From Lentibacter algarum (lineage in GTDB: Bacteria > Pseudomonadota > Alphaproteobacteria > Rhodobacterales > Rhodobacteraceae): a stretch of DNA of 64,000 nucleotides. The translations under genes were made by a program, and so were the position numbers. Of this stretch, positions 19,716-33,349 are shown piece after piece. The stretch spans positions 1,116,001 to 1,180,000 of the forward strand of contig NZ_CP158687.1 of the NCBI RefSeq assembly GCF_040580765.1, written 5' to 3'. Positions within the stretch are counted from its first letter, which is position 1. Each line of letters begins with the position of its first letter. Under the pieces are notes generated by a model. The model made no database searches and was not told the DNA's origin. It saw only the letters and a list, made by a program, of their open reading frames with translations.

Positions 19716-20516
19716 CTACGCGGCGATTTTCAGTTTCATAGCGGGTGTGATGCCGCCGATGGCCATGTTGGGCCGGTCGTTGTTGTAAGTCCAGAGCCAT
19801 TCGGTTGCTTGTTCTTGGGCCTCCTCGATAGTTTCAAAGATGTTCTGATCCAGCCATTCGTGGCGCACCGTGCGATTGTAGCGCTCGATGTAGGCGTTCT
19901 GTTGCGGCTTTCCTGGCTGGATGTATTCAATGTGAATGCCACGCGTCTCAGCCCATGATTTCAGCAGCCCACTGACATATTCTGGGCCGTTATCAACGCG
20001 GATTACCTCCGGCGCGCCGCGCCATTCGATGATCTGGTTCAGGCTGCGCACAACACGCACGGCGGGTAGCGAGAAGTCCACTTCAATGCCCAGGCCCTCT
20101 CGGTTGTAATCATCCAACACATTGAGGGTCCGGAACTTTCGCCCATCCGCCAGCTGATCCTGCATAAAGTCCATCGACCATGTGTGGTTGGGGGCTTCCG
20201 GCACTGCCAGTTCATCCGGCTTGGGCCGTTTCAGCCGCTTACGCGGCCTGATACGCAGGTTCAGCTCCAACTCGCAGTAGATCCGGTACACGCGCTTGTG
20301 GTTCCATTCATAGCCTTTGACGTTGCGTAGATACAAAAAACACAACCCAAAGCCCCACGTCTTGCGATTGGCCGTCAGGCGTACCAACCAATCCGCGATC
20401 TCAGCATTCTCATCGTCAAACTTGCGCTCATAACGATAGCACGTTTCGCTGATCTCAAAGGCGCGGCACGCCAGCGCGATGCTGACCTGTTTCGTTCTCA
20501 CCGCGTTTACGGCCAT
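19716..20516 (-). CDS. IS3-family transposase OrfB (DDE catalytic part)
   Basis: A 266-aa integrase-core transposase with the DDE residues visible in [19 protein letters not shown] and [11 protein letters not shown]. It is normally made as an OrfAB fusion by -1 frameshifting at the A7G run (20544-20550), since the open frame continues upstream into that run without a separate good ribosome site. The coding sequence looks intact, so the element could be active. Confidence 0.93.
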
Positions 20517-20536
20517 CTCGCGTCGCTGAGACGGCC

Positions 20537-20806
20537 TTACCGCTTTTTTTCAAGGGCTTCCTTCAGCAGATCATTCTGCATGCTCATCTCAGCATACATC
20601 CGCTTCAGACGACGGTTCTCAGCCTCCATCGCCTTCATTTGCGATACCATCGAAGCATCCATGCCGCCGAACTTCGCACGCCATTTGTAAAAACTCGCAC
20701 TGCTCATCCCATGTTCACGGCACAGCTCAGAGACAGGCACACCGCTCTCCGCTTGCTTCAAAATACCCATGATCTGCGCGTCGCTAAATCGTCCGTTCTT
20801 CATCAA
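20537..20806 (-). CDS. IS3-family transposase OrfA (helix-turn-helix)
   Basis: An 89-aa protein with an N-terminal helix-turn-helix ([16 protein letters not shown], then [16 protein letters not shown]) and a C-terminal leucine-zipper-like coiled coil ending EALEKKR. It binds the IS ends and supplies the N-terminus of the OrfAB transposase after a -1 shift at the run of seven A residues just before its stop. Confidence 0.92.
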
Positions 20807-26304: not shown

Positions 26305-26321
26305 CCGTGTGGGGGCACCAT
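26305..26321 (+). repeat. attL core of element B (17 bp)
   Basis: CCGTGTGGGGGCACCAT, identical to 33333-33349 in the same orientation and to 29013-29029 inverted. Together with the preceding bases it forms a hairpin TGGTGCC-GTGTGGG-GGCACCA. Identical end repeats plus an adjacent recombinase mark it as a probable crossover core. Confidence 0.7.
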
Positions 26322-26558
26322 AATTCAAGTCAAAGCATTGTAATACCTCACTAATTCGACTGATCGAGTGAGCCGTAGACCATGCTGGCAACCAAATCTA
26401 ATAGCTATACGTTCCAAAAGGACGGTATCTGGTATTTCTCCCGTAGAGTTCCCGCTGATTTACGGCGGCATTATCGGACGGGTAGGATTGCTTACTCGCT
26501 AAGGACTAAGTCCATTAGGGATGCCCGTGTTAGGGCGATGAATGATGCTGCTAAGTTA
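26305..26558 (+). repeat. 254-bp inverted repeat, left arm
   Basis: Matches 28776-29029 on the opposite strand without a mismatch that I can see. The arm begins with the att core, includes the recombinase promoter region with the CCGTAGACCA motif at 26373, and ends inside the recombinase gene after codon 59. Confidence 0.9.
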
Positions 26559-27545
26559 GACAGGCATTGGCACATCCTGCGAATCTCCTCTGATGATTTG
26601 CCAGGCAAGCATTTGCTAGCAGATGCTGTTCAGGAGCCAGCAACTGTAGCTTCTATCGATAATCATTCGTTTAAGGCTGCCGTGGCTGTTTATCTGCGCC
26701 TGAAGGGCAACGACCGCCCTCCAACCTTTGAAGCTGCTGTGAGGCGTTCTTGCGGCTATCTGATTGATTGCTGTGGGATGAAAGACCTCCACGATTATGT
26801 GCGGTCTGATGCTACCAAGTTCCGTGATTATCTATTTGCTAAGGGTCTCAACGGGGCTTCTGTGGCAAGGATATTTGGAACTGTAAGAGCCGTTATAAAC
26901 TTAGCTTTAAGTGAGTTTGGGCTAGCAATTGTCAACCCATTCTCAAACGTCTATTTTGATCATAGTGTTGGGGTTAAGAAGCGGCTGCCAGTAAAGCCTG
27001 AGGACATCAAGAAGGTTCAGGCAGAGTGCTATAAGGCTGATGATGAGAAGCGCTGGCTGATAGCCCTAATAGCTGACACTGGGATGCGTTTAGCCGAAGG
27101 TGCTGGGCTGTTAAGGTCTGACTTCATTGAGCAAGACGGCATCCTGTGCGTCAACATCAGGCCCCATCCTTGGCGATCCTTGAAGACCGCAAGCAGCACT
27201 AGAGTAATCCCGTTAGTCGGATCAGCTAAGTGGGCCGCAGAACGCATACTGGCCCAACCTGCTGATAGTGAGTTTGCATTCCCCAACTACAATGATGGGG
27301 AGAGAACCAACGCAAACTCAGCAAGCGCTGCATTGAACAAGTGGCTCAAAGGTAAGATTGGCGCAGGCTACACCATTCACAGCTTCCGTCACTCAATGCG
27401 AGATAGGTTGAGGGCAGTTGAATGTCCCAGTGATGTGATTGACCAAATTGGTGGTTGGCTTACCCAAGGAGTGGGGGCATCGTATGGAGAAGGGTATTCA
27501 ACGAAAATTCTCAGTCAATATCTGAAACAAACCAACTTTTTGTGA
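26382..27545 (+). CDS. Tyrosine recombinase of element B
   Basis: A 387-aa site-specific recombinase with an N-terminal domain of the kind seen in many island integrases (FQKDGIWYFSRRVPADLRRHY), a core-binding domain and a catalytic domain. The catalytic Arg is in DTGMRLAEGAGLL, HSFRHSMRDRL supplies the His/Arg box, and Tyr is in GASYGEGYS. All residues needed appear present. The start ATG overlaps a CCGTAGACCA motif, suggesting self-regulation, and no strong ribosome site is visible. The first 59 codons lie in the 254-bp repeat, so an inverted partial copy exists at 28776-28952. It is expected to recombine the 17-bp cores. Confidence 0.9.
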   Translation: MLATKSNSYTFQKDGIWYFSRRVPADLRRHYRTGRIAYSLRTKSIRDARVRAMNDAAKLDRHWHILRISSDDLPGKHLLADAVQEPATVASIDNHSFKAAVAVYLRLKGNDRPPTFEAAVRRSCGYLIDCCGMKDLHDYVRSDATKFRDYLFAKGLNGASVARIFGTVRAVINLALSEFGLAIVNPFSNVYFDHSVGVKKRLPVKPEDIKKVQAECYKADDEKRWLIALIADTGMRLAEGAGLLRSDFIEQDGILCVNIRPHPWRSLKTASSTRVIPLVGSAKWAAERILAQPADSEFAFPNYNDGERTNANSASAALNKWLKGKIGAGYTIHSFRHSMRDRLRAVECPSDVIDQIGGWLTQGVGASYGEGYSTKILSQYLKQTNFL

Positions 27546-27623
27546 GCCCACCGTTGAGAAAGCCAACAACGGCAAAGCACTTTGTCGCTTGTTTGCGTCA
27601 GTTGTTTAGAGGATGATATCATT

Positions 27624-28778
27624 ATGAAACTTTTTAACAAATACCATCCCAAAAACCATAGGCTGATCGCCGTTCTTGCATTTGTAATTAGCGCACCATC
27701 ACTTCTCGTAGCTGAGGATAGACCAGGCTTTTATAGCCCTGAGTTTCTCCCACTTGAACGTAATTATTATGACTTGTCGTTTGACAGTTCAGTAAGTGAT
27801 ACTGCTTCAGTGGGTAACAGCACGAGCCTGAGATGTATCGGTAGTGAGTGTAAAACCGCCCAATTCACCTCGTCTAGCGATATGGATCAGTATGGCTTTG
27901 GCATTACCTTCGTTACACCTCATATTAACGGACTAAGCTTTGGATCGTCAGTTCGATACACTGATTGGAGTGGTGTCACTTCACAGGATACTTGGGCGGG
28001 CCTTGATACGAGATACGATACTAATCATGCAGTTTCATTGAGAGTTTCTGGCTCATATTTGCTATCTGATGACAGCATAATAAAGGTCTCGCTTTCGCAA
28101 GATAAAAGTGCCTCCGCCAATCAAACTCAACGGGATGTACACTTCGAGGCGTCAAGTCTCATTACAGATAATGTAATGCTTTCTGGCCGTATATCTGCGC
28201 TTTGGGGCGATAAGCATCTTCCTAACGGTATAAAACATGTTGGAGCAACATTGCGATACAGCGAGACGTTTGGATCACTTGAAGCAAACGGCTCCATAAA
28301 TGTTCATAGCGCTACCTCGATAAGTCGTTCCTCGGTTGATGGGGTGGCGACAGCTACTGAGGAACAGTTTAATGGCTTTGGATCAGGTGGTGCTGTTTAT
28401 TTGAGGCATGATAATTCGAGATTTGGGGTAACTGCTTCGTTTGACGGCAATGATTTTGAGGGATCGCCACAAAACTATTCTTTCGGTCCGCAGTATATAT
28501 TCACTGGTTCTAATTTTGAGTTCACCGTGAGTGGTAATTACTTGGTTTCTCAGTCAAATGATGTGGCTAGTGGTTCTGACGTAACCAGCTTCTCAGACAA
28601 CATCACCAAAGAGTTGCGCATGCGATACGTTAGGGATTTCTCAGGTGGTTATTATCTCAACGCATCCGTGGTTCGCAGCTGGAATTCAGGTGGAAGCAGT
28701 ATTATTGGTACCCAAGTTCAAACTCAAAACTCTTCGAGCGGTTGGGGTTTGAACCTAGGGCTGACAAAGCAGTTTTAA
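27624..28778 (+). CDS. Putative outer-membrane beta-barrel protein
   Basis: A 384-aa protein with a signal peptide (LIAVLAFVISAPSLLVAED) and a body of alternating polar and hydrophobic residues. It ends in SGWGLNLGLTKQF, the C-terminal aromatic signature used for outer-membrane insertion. I do not recognise a specific family. A short cysteine pair (RCIGSECK) lies near residue 78. The ATG at 27624 follows GAGGATG. The stop codon TAA is formed by the first three bases of the 254-bp inverted repeat, so the present 3' end was set or reset by the repeat boundary. As mobile-element cargo it might alter phage or nutrient entry, which is speculation. Confidence 0.72.
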   Translation: MKLFNKYHPKNHRLIAVLAFVISAPSLLVAEDRPGFYSPEFLPLERNYYDLSFDSSVSDTASVGNSTSLRCIGSECKTAQFTSSSDMDQYGFGITFVTPHINGLSFGSSVRYTDWSGVTSQDTWAGLDTRYDTNHAVSLRVSGSYLLSDDSIIKVSLSQDKSASANQTQRDVHFEASSLITDNVMLSGRISALWGDKHLPNGIKHVGATLRYSETFGSLEANGSINVHSATSISRSSVDGVATATEEQFNGFGSGGAVYLRHDNSRFGVTASFDGNDFEGSPQNYSFGPQYIFTGSNFEFTVSGNYLVSQSNDVASGSDVTSFSDNITKELRMRYVRDFSGGYYLNASVVRSWNSGGSSIIGTQVQTQNSSSGWGLNLGLTKQF

Positions 28779-28952
28779 CTTAGCAGCATCATTCATCGCC
28801 CTAACACGGGCATCCCTAATGGACTTAGTCCTTAGCGAGTAAGCAATCCTACCCGTCCGATAATGCCGCCGTAAATCAGCGGGAACTCTACGGGAGAAAT
28901 ACCAGATACCGTCCTTTTGGAACGTATAGCTATTAGATTTGGTTGCCAGCAT
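28776..28952 (-). pseudogene. Truncated inverted copy of the element B recombinase (59 codons)
   Basis: Identical to the first 59 codons of the recombinase at 26382, then running into the end of the barrel-like gene, where an open frame continues for six unrelated codons. It lacks the core-binding and catalytic domains. It has the same upstream sequence as the intact gene, so it would be transcribed toward the barrel-like gene and could produce antisense RNA to its 3' end. Confidence 0.85.
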
Positions 28953-29012
28953 GGTCTACGGCTCACTCGATCAGTCGAATTAGTGAGGTATTACAATGCT
29001 TTGACTTGAATT

Positions 29013-29029
29013 ATGGTGCCCCCACACGG
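29013..29029 (-). repeat. Central inverted core of element B (17 bp)
   Basis: ATGGTGCCCCCACACGG on the plus strand, the reverse complement of the two terminal cores. It is the overlap between the 254-bp and 640-bp inverted repeats. Confidence 0.85.
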
Positions 29030-29652
29030 GGATGGCTCCGCCAGTAGGCACCAAGGTTAAGCATTAACCTCATAAAACAAGGCTACTGTCTCATTCTGAT
29101 CTCTGCAACAGGCGTAAATTGGTCTACGGTTTGGTCTACGGTTCAAGTTTAGGGCTACTGAACCTGAACGGTGCATTTAGGCGTCCCTATGACCCAAGCT
29201 GCCAGAGACTCTCAGTGAGTCATGCAGGGCGATGCTGCTTGTGCGCTAGGTCGGCTGGCGGATGAATCTAATGGGCCTGTACGAGCCTTACAGAGTCTCT
29301 CAGGGGCATTCAGCACTAGGGGGCGAGTGCCACCCCACCCTATAGGGGATATCGTATACAGGCCTGGCCCAAGATTGGTGGTGAGGAACTGTAAACCTAG
29401 CTGCATGCAGGGCGTTTAGGCCAAACTTGACTGTTTCATGAGAGCAGAGGGAGGATGGTTTATGTGCTAACTATCACAGCATTTGGTGATGCTGAGCGGT
29501 ACTCTGAGTTTCTACACAGTAGTCGCCCAATGTCATTGCCGTGCAGCTTGTCGATCACAGTCAGCCTGACTGATTAAATATATACTGGTAATGGAATAGG
29601 CCTAAGTGATTATTCTTGATTAGAAGGTGATAGTTGCCATCCTATTGAGGTG
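29013..29652 (+). repeat. 640-bp inverted repeat, left arm
   Basis: Matches 32710-33349 on the opposite strand over its whole length by eye. It contains no convincing gene. It holds two CCGTAGACCA motifs 12 bp apart (inverted here), a hairpin CAGCAT...ATGCTG (29477-29494), a hairpin CAGTCA-GCC-TGACTG (29558-29572) and small palindromes. It ends 30 bp before the polymerase-like gene, so it probably carries that gene's promoter. Confidence 0.92.
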
Positions 29653-29682
29653 TGAGGTGACTGAATAGGAATTGATCAGCGT

Positions 29683-31116
29683 ATGACGTCAGACAACTTA
29701 AACAACTCTCGTCCGCTAGATGTTCATCTATGGTCCGATTACCCTGAGATTAACCACTTAGTCGATGCACTGTGGGAGACTTACTTTGAACCTGTTGAAG
29801 TTATCCGTCGTGGTCCAAAGCCAAAGGCTACCAAGAAGTCCCATTTAAAAGTACTACTCTTAGATCTGTATGTTTGTTGGGTGAACGACCCCACGATGTA
29901 CATTGCTGTTCACATGTCAATGTCTGGCTGGAAAGCGAATAGCAGGTACAACGCCCTCCATCTATCATCCCAAATGATAGATATCGTACGGAGGCTGGTT
30001 CATCTCGAATACCTTGAATTCCACAAAGGTTATGAGGGGAGACTATCTCGGATTAGAGCCACTGACAGACTTCATTATATCTTCCACAGCATTATAGTTC
30101 CTTTACCTGCCATATTCTTCCATCACTCTCAGGAAGTGTTAGAACTGCGAGGCGATGCTGATACGGAGATATCAATCTCTAAGCCGAAGCTAGAATATAC
30201 AGATACTGATGCCACGGCGAAGATGCGGGCAGTCCTGCTAGCCTACAATGACCTGTTAAGACGCAGTCATCTGGATATCTGTTCATTGGAACAGCCTTTC
30301 ATCGATAGAGTTATTACAAAGGGTCCACGGCAAGGTGAGCAGGTTCGGATCCATATTGATCATAGGAACATCTTTGTTAAGCGGGTGTTCAACAAAGGTA
30401 GTTGGGGGTTAGGCGGCCGCTTCTATGGAGGATGGTGGCAACTCATCGACAAAGACCTTCGTAGCGATATCATGATCAACGACAAACCCACCATTGAGAT
30501 CGACTACAAGTCGATGCACGTTGCTCTTCTTTTGGCTCAAATTAAACAGAAGTCGAACTACGATCCGTATACTTTAAGCAAGTCTATCTTCCCTAATAGA
30601 AACGATCTTGATCAGCGTTCTGTGGTGAAACAACTCGTGCTTATGGCCCTTAACGCCAGTGACAGGAAAACAGCGTTCTCTGCATTTCGTGGTGATCAAC
30701 CAACAGGACATTCCGCCAAAAAACTTACTAACGTCGAACTATCCAAACTGCTTGATGCTTTCATCGATGAGTATCCTGATTTGGCACCATTTATGTGCAC
30801 AGGTAAAGGCCTTGAACTGATGTACATAGACAGTTGCATAGCCGAGCATGTCATTGATCACTTTACGGACCTAGGCGTCCCTATCCTATGCCTGCACGAT
30901 AGCTTTATCGTACCATTTGCTCACGTTTTGGAATTACGGGCTGAGATGGTCAAAGCTGGTTCGACAGCTACACGGCGGTTCATGTTTACTGAAAAAGACG
31001 GCATTGGTCTGGATGAATGGTTTACGGCTTATGAGAACACTGGGCAGCAACCAGGCTTTGAGCCGAAGCAAGTTGTAAGATGTGAAGGATACATGAGCCG
31101 GTTGGAGGCCTGGTGA
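29683..31116 (+). CDS. Divergent single-subunit polymerase-like protein (PolA/T7 RNAP superfamily candidate)
   Basis: A 477-aa protein with three blocks that fit the palm and fingers of family A polymerases. Motif A-like TIEIDYKSMHVALLLA carries Asp274, motif B-like QRSVVKQLVLMALNAS has the Arg312-x3-Lys316 spacing of both PolI and T7 RNA polymerase, and motif C-like CLHDSFIVP has His405-Asp406 as in T7 RNA polymerase. The Tyr that follows Lys by eight residues in PolI and T7 is Asn324 here. The N-terminal 200 residues look helical and match no exonuclease domain I can see. It lies between the arms of the 640-bp repeat. A polymerase or primase role is inferred from motifs only. Confidence 0.6.
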   Translation: MTSDNLNNSRPLDVHLWSDYPEINHLVDALWETYFEPVEVIRRGPKPKATKKSHLKVLLLDLYVCWVNDPTMYIAVHMSMSGWKANSRYNALHLSSQMIDIVRRLVHLEYLEFHKGYEGRLSRIRATDRLHYIFHSIIVPLPAIFFHHSQEVLELRGDADTEISISKPKLEYTDTDATAKMRAVLLAYNDLLRRSHLDICSLEQPFIDRVITKGPRQGEQVRIHIDHRNIFVKRVFNKGSWGLGGRFYGGWWQLIDKDLRSDIMINDKPTIEIDYKSMHVALLLAQIKQKSNYDPYTLSKSIFPNRNDLDQRSVVKQLVLMALNASDRKTAFSAFRGDQPTGHSAKKLTNVELSKLLDAFIDEYPDLAPFMCTGKGLELMYIDSCIAEHVIDHFTDLGVPILCLHDSFIVPFAHVLELRAEMVKAGSTATRRFMFTEKDGIGLDEWFTAYENTGQQPGFEPKQVVRCEGYMSRLEAW

Positions 31117-31187
31117 TGCACGTCATTAGAAGACAGGCTATATCTGAGCAAACAATTGAAACCTTAGACCAACAAGGAATTCGCTAG

Positions 31188-31685
31188 ATGTATCAGACTA
31201 TCGTATTATGGATGGCCTTCATAACGATGGCATCCTGCTCAACTGCATCGCTGGCCGATGGATTACCCGGATCGATCTTTGCAATCGAAAGGTATCGTTC
31301 CATCGAGCGATCTTACCTCACTGAGCGCTACGATATCTTCTGCCTACAAAGGCCGGGTTTTATGGTCGAGATCCCTTGGGATGCGAGCAAGTTTTATGGC
31401 GATCCCTCAAAGGCACAGGTTGAAGTCGAACTGATCGACATGGGTATGATTGAGTGTAAGCATGGTTGGGACCTGCATGAAATGGGTAACATCCGCCAGG
31501 GTAGCGGCGGCACTGAATGGATCGCTGTGTACAATGATGAATTCTTAGTCAGATTTACTGCTATGGAGGCCGAAATCACATATTCTGACAATGGAGAACC
31601 AAGCATTGTGGCTTTGGTGCATCCAATGTATTGTGAAAATGTCAGAGAGAAATGTACGCTTTATATGCGACTTCCGTTAGAATAA
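31188..31685 (+). CDS. Exported or lipoprotein-like protein of element B, unknown function
   Basis: A 165-aa product with a hydrophobic N-terminus ending TMASCSTASLADG, which could be cleaved either as a lipoprotein (before Cys17) or by signal peptidase I. The mature part has several cysteines and a beta-rich appearance (QVEVELIDMGMIECKHGW). I recognise no family. It lies 71 bp after the polymerase-like gene on the same strand, inside the 640-bp repeat pair. Confidence 0.6.
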   Translation: MYQTIVLWMAFITMASCSTASLADGLPGSIFAIERYRSIERSYLTERYDIFCLQRPGFMVEIPWDASKFYGDPSKAQVEVELIDMGMIECKHGWDLHEMGNIRQGSGGTEWIAVYNDEFLVRFTAMEAEITYSDNGEPSIVALVHPMYCENVREKCTLYMRLPLE

Positions 31686-31809
31686 CGTGACTTCTGAAAA
31701 TATTCAAAATTGAAAAACTCACTATGATCAGTATTGTTATTTTACAACAAATGAGCACATGTCTCAGACGCAGTAGATGCATCCCGCTCAACTTTGAAAG
31801 GTCTTTTGT

Positions 31810-32631
31810 ATGCTAGCGGTAGCTGGTGGTATTTTGCTCGCACTCCTCATTCTTGTTCTGTTGCCAGCTATTTTTGAGTTGATACCAATTCTGTTAGGCG
31901 CTGGAATCTTGCTGTTTGTTGCTGTGTTAATTATAACAGGAGCAATACCATTAGAAATTGTCATTTTAGGCTTTGGTCTATTATTTGCGTTAGGCGTTTT
32001 TGGTTCTTTTAAAGGTAACCACAGTATGTCTGACAAAAGCAGTATTAGTTATGCTGCTGGCCGTAAGCTTGCCGCTTCTAAATCAATGGTAAGTCAGCAA
32101 AAAATACCAAGATCAAAAAAAATAGAATTTCAGAGAAAAATAAGATTACTGACCCCAGCACTCACAAATCGTTCAGCACTGAAAAAAATAAAAGATCTTA
32201 AAGAAATTGATGACCAGCAGGTAGAGTACGAAAAGCTTGCAATGCAAACTGCATCTGCCGCCTTAGATACCTTTACCGTATATTTAGTTGATCACCTCTC
32301 AAAACAATTTCAAGTATATATTGAAAGTGACCTACTACGGTTAGTGACTAACAGACATGAGGACATGCCAGAAACAGCAACATTTAAGTGTGACATTTCA
32401 ATTCAGCTAGGCGATGAAGCCAGTGAAATTGCATCTGTATGCACACTAGTCAGAGCGATTTCTGAAAAAAGGTCAATACGTACAATCAGTCTTTTTCTTT
32501 CGAAATCAGATCTAAGAAACTTACACGGTATAAGTATTAAAAAAGCTGTTCGTAATATCAACAAGTTAATCATATCCGAACTCAAAAAAAATCCTCAACT
32601 AATAGATAAAATAAAAAAAACCGAAACATAG
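31810..32631 (+). CDS. Membrane-anchored protein of element B, unknown function
   Basis: A 273-aa protein with two or three N-terminal hydrophobic segments (residues 1-67) followed by a basic, lysine-rich cytoplasmic domain of about 200 residues with charged helices. The sequence is strikingly AT-rich and uses AAA and ATA heavily, unlike the core genes on either side. This suggests origin from an AT-rich source. No motif points to an activity. It is the last gene before the right arm of the 640-bp repeat. Confidence 0.6.
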   Translation: MLAVAGGILLALLILVLLPAIFELIPILLGAGILLFVAVLIITGAIPLEIVILGFGLLFALGVFGSFKGNHSMSDKSSISYAAGRKLAASKSMVSQQKIPRSKKIEFQRKIRLLTPALTNRSALKKIKDLKEIDDQQVEYEKLAMQTASAALDTFTVYLVDHLSKQFQVYIESDLLRLVTNRHEDMPETATFKCDISIQLGDEASEIASVCTLVRAISEKRSIRTISLFLSKSDLRNLHGISIKKAVRNINKLIISELKKNPQLIDKIKKTET

Positions 32632-32709
32632 TCTTTAAGTCAGTTATCTTACCCCAAAAACAGTCTACAGTTATACTCCTATTGAGTTCCCTCTCATCCA
32701 AACATCCAT

Positions 32710-33349
32710 CACCTCAATAGGATGGCAACTATCACCTTCTAATCAAGAATAATCACTTAGGCCTATTCCATTACCAGTATATATTTAATCAGTCAGGCTG
32801 ACTGTGATCGACAAGCTGCACGGCAATGACATTGGGCGACTACTGTGTAGAAACTCAGAGTACCGCTCAGCATCACCAAATGCTGTGATAGTTAGCACAT
32901 AAACCATCCTCCCTCTGCTCTCATGAAACAGTCAAGTTTGGCCTAAACGCCCTGCATGCAGCTAGGTTTACAGTTCCTCACCACCAATCTTGGGCCAGGC
33001 CTGTATACGATATCCCCTATAGGGTGGGGTGGCACTCGCCCCCTAGTGCTGAATGCCCCTGAGAGACTCTGTAAGGCTCGTACAGGCCCATTAGATTCAT
33101 CCGCCAGCCGACCTAGCGCACAAGCAGCATCGCCCTGCATGACTCACTGAGAGTCTCTGGCAGCTTGGGTCATAGGGACGCCTAAATGCACCGTTCAGGT
33201 TCAGTAGCCCTAAACTTGAACCGTAGACCAAACCGTAGACCAATTTACGCCTGTTGCAGAGATCAGAATGAGACAGTAGCCTTGTTTTATGAGGTTAATG
33301 CTTAACCTTGGTGCCTACTGGCGGAGCCATCCCCGTGTGGGGGCACCAT
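32710..33349 (-). repeat. 640-bp inverted repeat, right arm
   Basis: Reverse complement of 29013-29652. It ends in the attR core and carries CCGTAGACCA at 33221-33230 and 33233-33242. Together with the left arm it flanks a unique 3057-bp segment (29653-32709) with the polymerase-like gene and two unknown genes. Confidence 0.92.
33333..33349 (+). repeat. attR core of element B (17 bp)
   Basis: Identical to 26305-26321 in the same orientation. After it the sequence departs from the element (TTTCCAGAAAA), which sets the right boundary. Confidence 0.7.

Follow-up and report, generated by a model that had tools for sequence, protein, structure and literature searches.

We found that an integrative element in the window, as we call the whole 64,000-nucleotide stretch of Lentibacter algarum DNA analysed here, carries a second, inverted copy of its own attachment site, and comparison with related loci placed this element in a family of tyrosine-recombinase integrative elements with two identical, inverted attPs. 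As read from these sequences, one attP divides the element into an integrase half and a cargo or replication half, and after integration via one attP the other lies inside, inverted. Textbook integrative elements have one attP. By every feature tested the window element is a tyrosine-recombinase integrative element, and the paired inverted attP is what is new.

The initial annotation had noted three copies of a 17-bp core in +, -, + orientation, the central one embedded in an exact inverted attP whose arms appeared free of mismatches by eye. Self-BLAST bore this out: the core (CCGTGTGGGGGCACCAT) lies at 26305 (+), 29013 (-) and 33333 (+), and the 877 bp at 28776-29652 repeat, inverted and without a single difference, the circle junction (attP) of the element 26305-33349. 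The segment 29013-29652 is the reverse complement of 32710-33349 over 640 bp, and 28776-29029 that of 26305-26558 over 254 bp, each with 0 mismatches and 0 gaps (both arm lengths count in the 17-bp core). Read on the minus strand, the central copy runs arm B, core, arm A, which is the junction expected of attL x attR, and it contains the first 59 codons of the integrase (ORF 28755-28952, -), again as annotated. The 877-bp segment matches only three places in its own genome, all of them within the window element. The features of the element are collected in Table 1.

Table 1 Features of the integrative element, in window coordinates.
Feature	Position	Strand	Remarks
Whole element ("element B")	26305..33349	+	7045 bp, outer to far core; direct end cores, inverted core inside
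Core 1, outer end (attL side)	26305..26321	+	same sequence as tRNA-Thr(TGT) 3' end
Arm A, outer copy	26322..26558	+	integrase upstream region and first 59 codons; 100% identical to inverted 28776-29012
Integrase, tyrosine recombinase, 387 aa	26382..27545	+	DUF6538 and Phage_integrase
384-aa protein	27624..28778	+	exported beta-strand look, porin-like by eye only; no Pfam or PHROGs match
Arm A, inner inverted copy	28776..29012	-	carries truncated integrase start, ORF 28755-28952
Core 2, inner inverted	29013..29029	-	located by self-BLAST
Arm B, inner inverted copy	29030..29652	-	100% identical to 32710-33332; immediately upstream of polymerase-like gene
Polymerase-like protein, 477 aa	29683..31116	+	family-A DNA polymerase / single-subunit RNA polymerase fold
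165-aa ORF	31188..31685	+	exported or lipoprotein-like by eye; no family match in Pfam or PHROGs
273-aa ORF	31810..32631	+	hydrophobic N-terminus; no family match in Pfam or PHROGs
Arm B, outer copy	32710..33332	+	located by self-BLAST
Core 3, far end (attR side)	33333..33349	+	located by self-BLAST

The integrase matched bacterial Phage_integrase and PHROG integrase models (PF20172, E 7e-17, and PF00589, E 1e-10, over the cut-off; PHROG 1 integrase, E 2e-34) and had no match among viral contigs or phage records. The protein at 29683-31116 has the polymerase-domain fold of family-A DNA and single-subunit RNA polymerases and matched no Pfam family; its relatives, found in many roseobacter islands and in phages of Vibrio, Aeromonas and Rheinheimera, carry the label "hypothetical protein". 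A search with the polymerase found none among viral contigs, and its alignment gave 13 distant matches there and, as a profile, no match among solved structures.

Two direct cores, at 26305 and 33333, bound the element, and the identity of the core with a tRNA 3' end is what is expected of an integrative element. Five cores occur in the 3.28-Mb genome, at 1098132, 1110527, 1142305 and 1149333 and as the window's middle copy (29013), the only inverted one of the five. The core at 1098132 forms the 3' end of tRNA-Thr(TGT) (anticodon UGU; 16 bp identical), and the window element is the last of three stacked behind this one tRNA gene, 44 kb downstream of it, which is why its left flank is not a tRNA. 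No inverted core was found in the two tRNA-proximal elements of the stack (1098132-1142305). The genome holds another, distant polymerase element (L027; 2402500-2422400; 3448-12732), which has 54-bp direct repeats at a tRNA-Leu and no inverted attP. The window also holds, at 19716-20806, a transposase-like ORF pair of IS3-type look by eye.

The search for the same three-core layout in related genomes that the initial annotation had proposed recovered it, as +, -, + cores with arms 85-100% identical, in 15 loci besides the window. Relatives of the polymerase led to elements in tRNA-Gln genes of roseobacters, where both arms were repeated at 85-100% identity in Roseovarius (L093), Shimia (L098), Falsiruegeria mediterranea (L105), Ruegeria arenilitoris (L152) and Marivivens (L085); a sixth tRNA-Gln locus, in Pseudohalocynthiibacter (L084), joined them once its far end had been fetched. 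Extending the fetched stretch likewise revealed the third core of L228, L248 and L247, the cores of L223, L235, L242 and L256 all lay within the stretch first fetched, and no third core was found for L222, L246, L249 and L250 in the stretches fetched. In two of the tRNA-Gln-type elements (L100 at ~11738, L097 at ~4100) one end retains just the final bases of the core before the sequence departs from that of the tRNA, which would fit insertion at a secondary site or a move to one.

The sister of the window element, in strain IMCC1909 (L158), has an integrase 90% identical in protein sequence, the same core, again in +, -, + order, and arms of 262 bp (99.6%) and 438 bp (99.8%); in its half B, genes for a Prim-Pol and a D5-type helicase replace the polymerase. 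The remaining locus lies on a finished replicon, the megaplasmid of Ruegeria sp. TM1040 (L308, NC_008043.1), a bacterium of marine origin, where the element spans about 586-599 kb and has arms of 85 and 1148 bp, both 100% identical. Its order is tRNA-Phe, core, integrase, inverted core, the 1148-bp arm, type I restriction-modification cargo, the identical inverted arm, and core. The 1148-bp arm contains a complete BRO-family gene, so that the NCBI annotation lists the same BRO protein, under one accession, twice in opposite directions (L308 16511-17086 and 26855-27430), since these are the two inverted copies of arm B.

The cleanest test was to survey loci by the integrase itself, for which we scored an inverted repeat of at least 40 bp and at least 85% identity that encloses the integrase within 13 kb. 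Such a repeat was present in 16 of 20 family loci (20 of the 27 non-own integrase matches, seven partial or weaker ones being left out) and in 14 of 20 wider-class loci (20 of 21 non-own matches), and in 0 of 20 P4-type loci of the same family, picked from a longer list and mostly full-length; relatives thus differed from P4-type controls by 30/40 versus 0/20 (Fisher p 1.4e-8). The integrases of eight relatives were identified by tblastn and the tree. Of 61 integrases tried, 59 entered that tree (two gave no match), and the positives fell into two well-supported clades: the window's clade, with 32 positive among 42 rows, and a tRNA-Gln clade in which all 9 rows were positive, having been chosen for their repeats.

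Ten of the 40 integrase relatives had no qualifying inverted repeat. In two of these ten (L252, L258) the contig stops close to the integrase, and for L225, L231, L234 and L240 no adjacent tRNA was found; in L243, L254, L255 and L261 both a tRNA and an integrase are present, L254 retaining a 57-bp repeat of 82.5% identity. Of 18 random windows of 16-20 kb, drawn from arbitrary positions in same-family genomes (20 were asked for, 2 contigs being too short), none had an inverted repeat of at least 60 bp and at least 80% identity, and exact inverted repeats of such length are not due to chance. Recurrence and these controls together led us to reject both chance and simple duplication as the source of the layout.

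Two simpler associations were also rejected. The layout does not belong to the polymerase gene: 23 of 80 polymerase loci (80 kept of 248) have the gene enclosed by an inverted repeat, against 0 of the 18 random windows, L158 combines the layout with other replication genes, and polymerase elements with one attachment pair and no such repeat exist (for example L027, L094, L140, L143 and L148). The layout is found, too, in elements with no replication gene in the ORF list of the cargo half (L242, L256, the L245 region and L290). Nor is DUF6538 alone sufficient, as 0 of 10 DUF6538 loci outside the family had an integrase-enclosing inverted repeat, in 7-kb windows that would miss larger units; one of these loci, L296, has a repeat elsewhere.

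One origin offered in the initial annotation, integration of a second copy followed by deletion, was not supported. Such an event would be a one-off, which conflicts with a layout that recurs at different tRNA genes with near-identical arms specific to each element. A relic of a second copy that integrated or recombined and was then deleted, or an error of assembly, is in our judgement very improbable, given the 15 other loci, the long or single-contig assemblies and the finished TM1040 replicon among them, and the 0 of 20 control integrase loci with the layout. In L226, L227, L229, L230, L232, L236-L239 and L241 the integrase lies from a few hundred bases to ~3 kb from a contig end, the pattern expected if assemblies break at repeated arms.

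We then compared the arms within and between elements. For arm A in five elements of the window's subclade, identity was 96.6-100% within elements and 81.8-93.4% between them, and 18 of 28 arm-A pairs of equal length (gap-free) had no mismatch. If the two copies had drifted apart independently after one shared duplication, an outer copy should look like the outer copies in other elements; it looks instead like its own partner, indicating that arm copies are homogenised or remade. The repeat arms span 77-1148 bp among elements, and the repeated arm A ends no more than 25 bp from the integrase start in 24 of 32 loci. These comparisons showed that the second attP is maintained and that the arms are kept alike within each element. 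As related elements from many marine bacteria share the layout, the mirrored arrangement seems to be a functioning component of a so far undescribed kind of integrating element and not an accident.

The orientation of the two halves bears on what that part may do. Within the window's integrase clade, the tRNA side could be placed in 27 of 30 loci, and in all 27 the integrase has its 5' end towards the tRNA; with TM1040 the count is 28 of 28 (p 7e-9 on random use of two equivalent attPs). It covers many different tRNA genes and, like our other tallies, ignores kinship. The sole candidate exception, left uncounted, is L245 (G699:C22), a possible tandem of two elements in which a repeated arm lies 5' of the integrase. 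In the tRNA-Gln group 8 of 10 integrases point outward (not significant), and the polymerase half of that group lies 5' to the tRNA in 8 of 15 loci and 3' to it in 7 of 15; in these tallies L099 has no inverted repeat and L149 a partial gene, and L031 (a fragment) and L086 (no repeat) were left uncounted. The polymerase half is flipped between close relatives, namely L122 and L030 (polymerase genes sharing 96.5% of their nucleotides; the integrase half is gone from L030) and L100 and L152 (90.7%). A double-stranded circle with two equivalent attPs should yield both integrase orientations; as these were not seen, either one attP is used or one outcome survives. Of the maintained recombination switch suggested in the initial annotation, maintenance is borne out by the recurrence and the homogenised arms; for a switch the observations point both ways, the integrase half lying one way next to the tRNA in all 28 loci judged and the polymerase half being found both ways.

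The most likely reading, which we hold tentatively and somewhat short of an even chance, is that the inverted attPs pair in single-stranded DNA into one duplex attP, as in CTXphi, whose two inverted attP copies (attP1/attP2) are described as pairing in folded ssDNA to give a duplex attP (PMC5357621). An inverted att pair able to pair within one strand, a feature of CTXphi-type integration (IMEX), is present here in the perfect inverted arms. During transfer or replication a single-stranded form of the element would arise, and its inverted attPs would anneal into one perfectly double-stranded attP in which the region upstream of the integrase would also be double-stranded. Recombination by the integrase would then join this folded site to the 3' end of the tRNA, in the way that XerC acts on folded DNA of CTXphi. 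With one strand only in use, the integrase 5' end would always come to lie beside the outer core, the paired arms would be kept identical by mismatch repair or recombination, and the polymerase half may flip by ordinary homologous recombination between its long arms.

Strand-specific pairing would account for the fixed orientation of the integrase, for perfect identity even in arms of 77-120 bp, for a repeat that ends at the integrase start, and for elements in which replication genes are not recognised. When one strand of the TM1040 integrase cassette is folded by prediction, 85 of 85 arm pairs form, as is expected from the repeat itself. Against pairing in ssDNA, neither the window element nor the 8 scanned proteins of relatives contained a recognisable relaxase or rolling-circle initiator, and ten of the 40 integrase relatives have no qualifying repeat, four of them (named above) despite a tRNA and an integrase. 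The candidate exception L245, the non-significant 8 of 10 in the tRNA-Gln group and the two orientations of the polymerase half also count against it. Selection against transcripts that run from the integrase into the tRNA, or transcription that blocks one attP, could likewise fix the orientation.

We also weighed a scheme like that of the yeast 2-micron plasmid (Flp/FRT), which has inverted identical 599-bp repeats with recombinase sites and two equal isomers (PMC3147054). On this scheme, the excised circle would invert during replication, through the integrase or by homologous recombination, so that a single initiation would lead to double rolling-circle amplification and to a higher copy number before the element re-integrates or is transferred. 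The predicted circle shares the plan, since its two inverted identical 877-bp repeats, each with a core, divide it into two unique halves, one with the recombinase and the other with the polymerase-like gene (or, in L158, the Prim-Pol and D5-type helicase genes). Inversion predicts the two orientations of the polymerase half among relatives, including those of the close pairs, more directly than pairing in ssDNA does, and the scheme would also account for recombinase and replication genes lying apart. Equivalent double-stranded attPs, however, would predict both integrase orientations, against the single one seen, unless the choice of attP or survival is biased; several elements have no recognisable replication gene; and inversion with homogenisation is expected of any long perfect inverted repeat and so is not evidence of amplification. 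Unlike the 2-micron plasmid, these elements integrate into tRNA genes with a bacterial integrase in a fixed orientation, and amplification is only hypothetical here. We regard this scheme as unlikely, though it is the main rival.

Similarly doubtful, in our estimate, is a role in regulation or redundancy, with the inner attP serving as a spare, as a decoy for the integrase or as an inversion switch for the promoter of the integrase or cargo, and with orientation fixed by selection against transcription into the tRNA. That the repeat spans exactly from the core to the integrase start, the likely promoter, in those 24 loci is consistent with such a role, as are the flipped polymerase halves, but an integrase-driven switch should leave both integrase orientations, and the homogenised arms far exceed a promoter or an attP, being 640 bp long here and, in TM1040, 1148 bp with a complete BRO gene inside.

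Returning to pairing in ssDNA, the elements differ from CTXphi in several respects. They use their own integrase and a core identical to a tRNA 3' end, where CTXphi-type integration (IMEX) uses host XerCD and dif, and their folding as single strands is a proposal. Their repeats of 77-1148 bp are split by the integrase gene, whereas the corresponding spacing in CTXphi is ~90 nt (PMC5357621). With tRNA-targeting islands and integrative mobilizable elements they share an integrase near one end, a core equal to the tRNA 3' end, direct repeats at the ends, tandem stacking and cargo of the restriction-modification type; they differ in having a full second, inverted attP inside with both arms homogenised, a feature seen in 0 of the 20 P4-type islands examined. 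Like tycheposons, they are tRNA-anchored cargo elements of marine bacteria with a tyrosine recombinase, and they apparently differ in the inverted internal attachment site, of which the passages on tycheposons in PMC10872708 make no mention. A Tardiphaga xanthorhodopsin element, reported to have direct or inverted repeats beside its integrase (PMC7701988, in part), may be a relative of this family; compared by description only, its repeats are not presented as an inverted attP in the portion available. Within the mostly non-subscription literature searched, which included parts of PMC8373256 and PMC8138268, there was no description of an inverted internal attP in an integrative element.

The second, mirrored attP is conserved in two separate integrase clades and homogenised, and none of the P4-type islands examined has it. 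Because these repeats often interrupt short-read contigs, such elements are likely to be fragmented in draft genomes; the inverted repeat offers a simple signature for finding them. On a stronger and rather less probable version of the folding model, an alphaproteobacterial class of elements with paired, inverted, homogenised attPs would integrate as folded ssDNA, the duplex attP and integrase promoter letting an incoming strand express the integrase and integrate before it becomes double-stranded. On the two leading readings, the second attP would point either to folded-ssDNA integration by ordinary island integrases or to a bacterial counterpart of 2-micron inversion, and either would be new.
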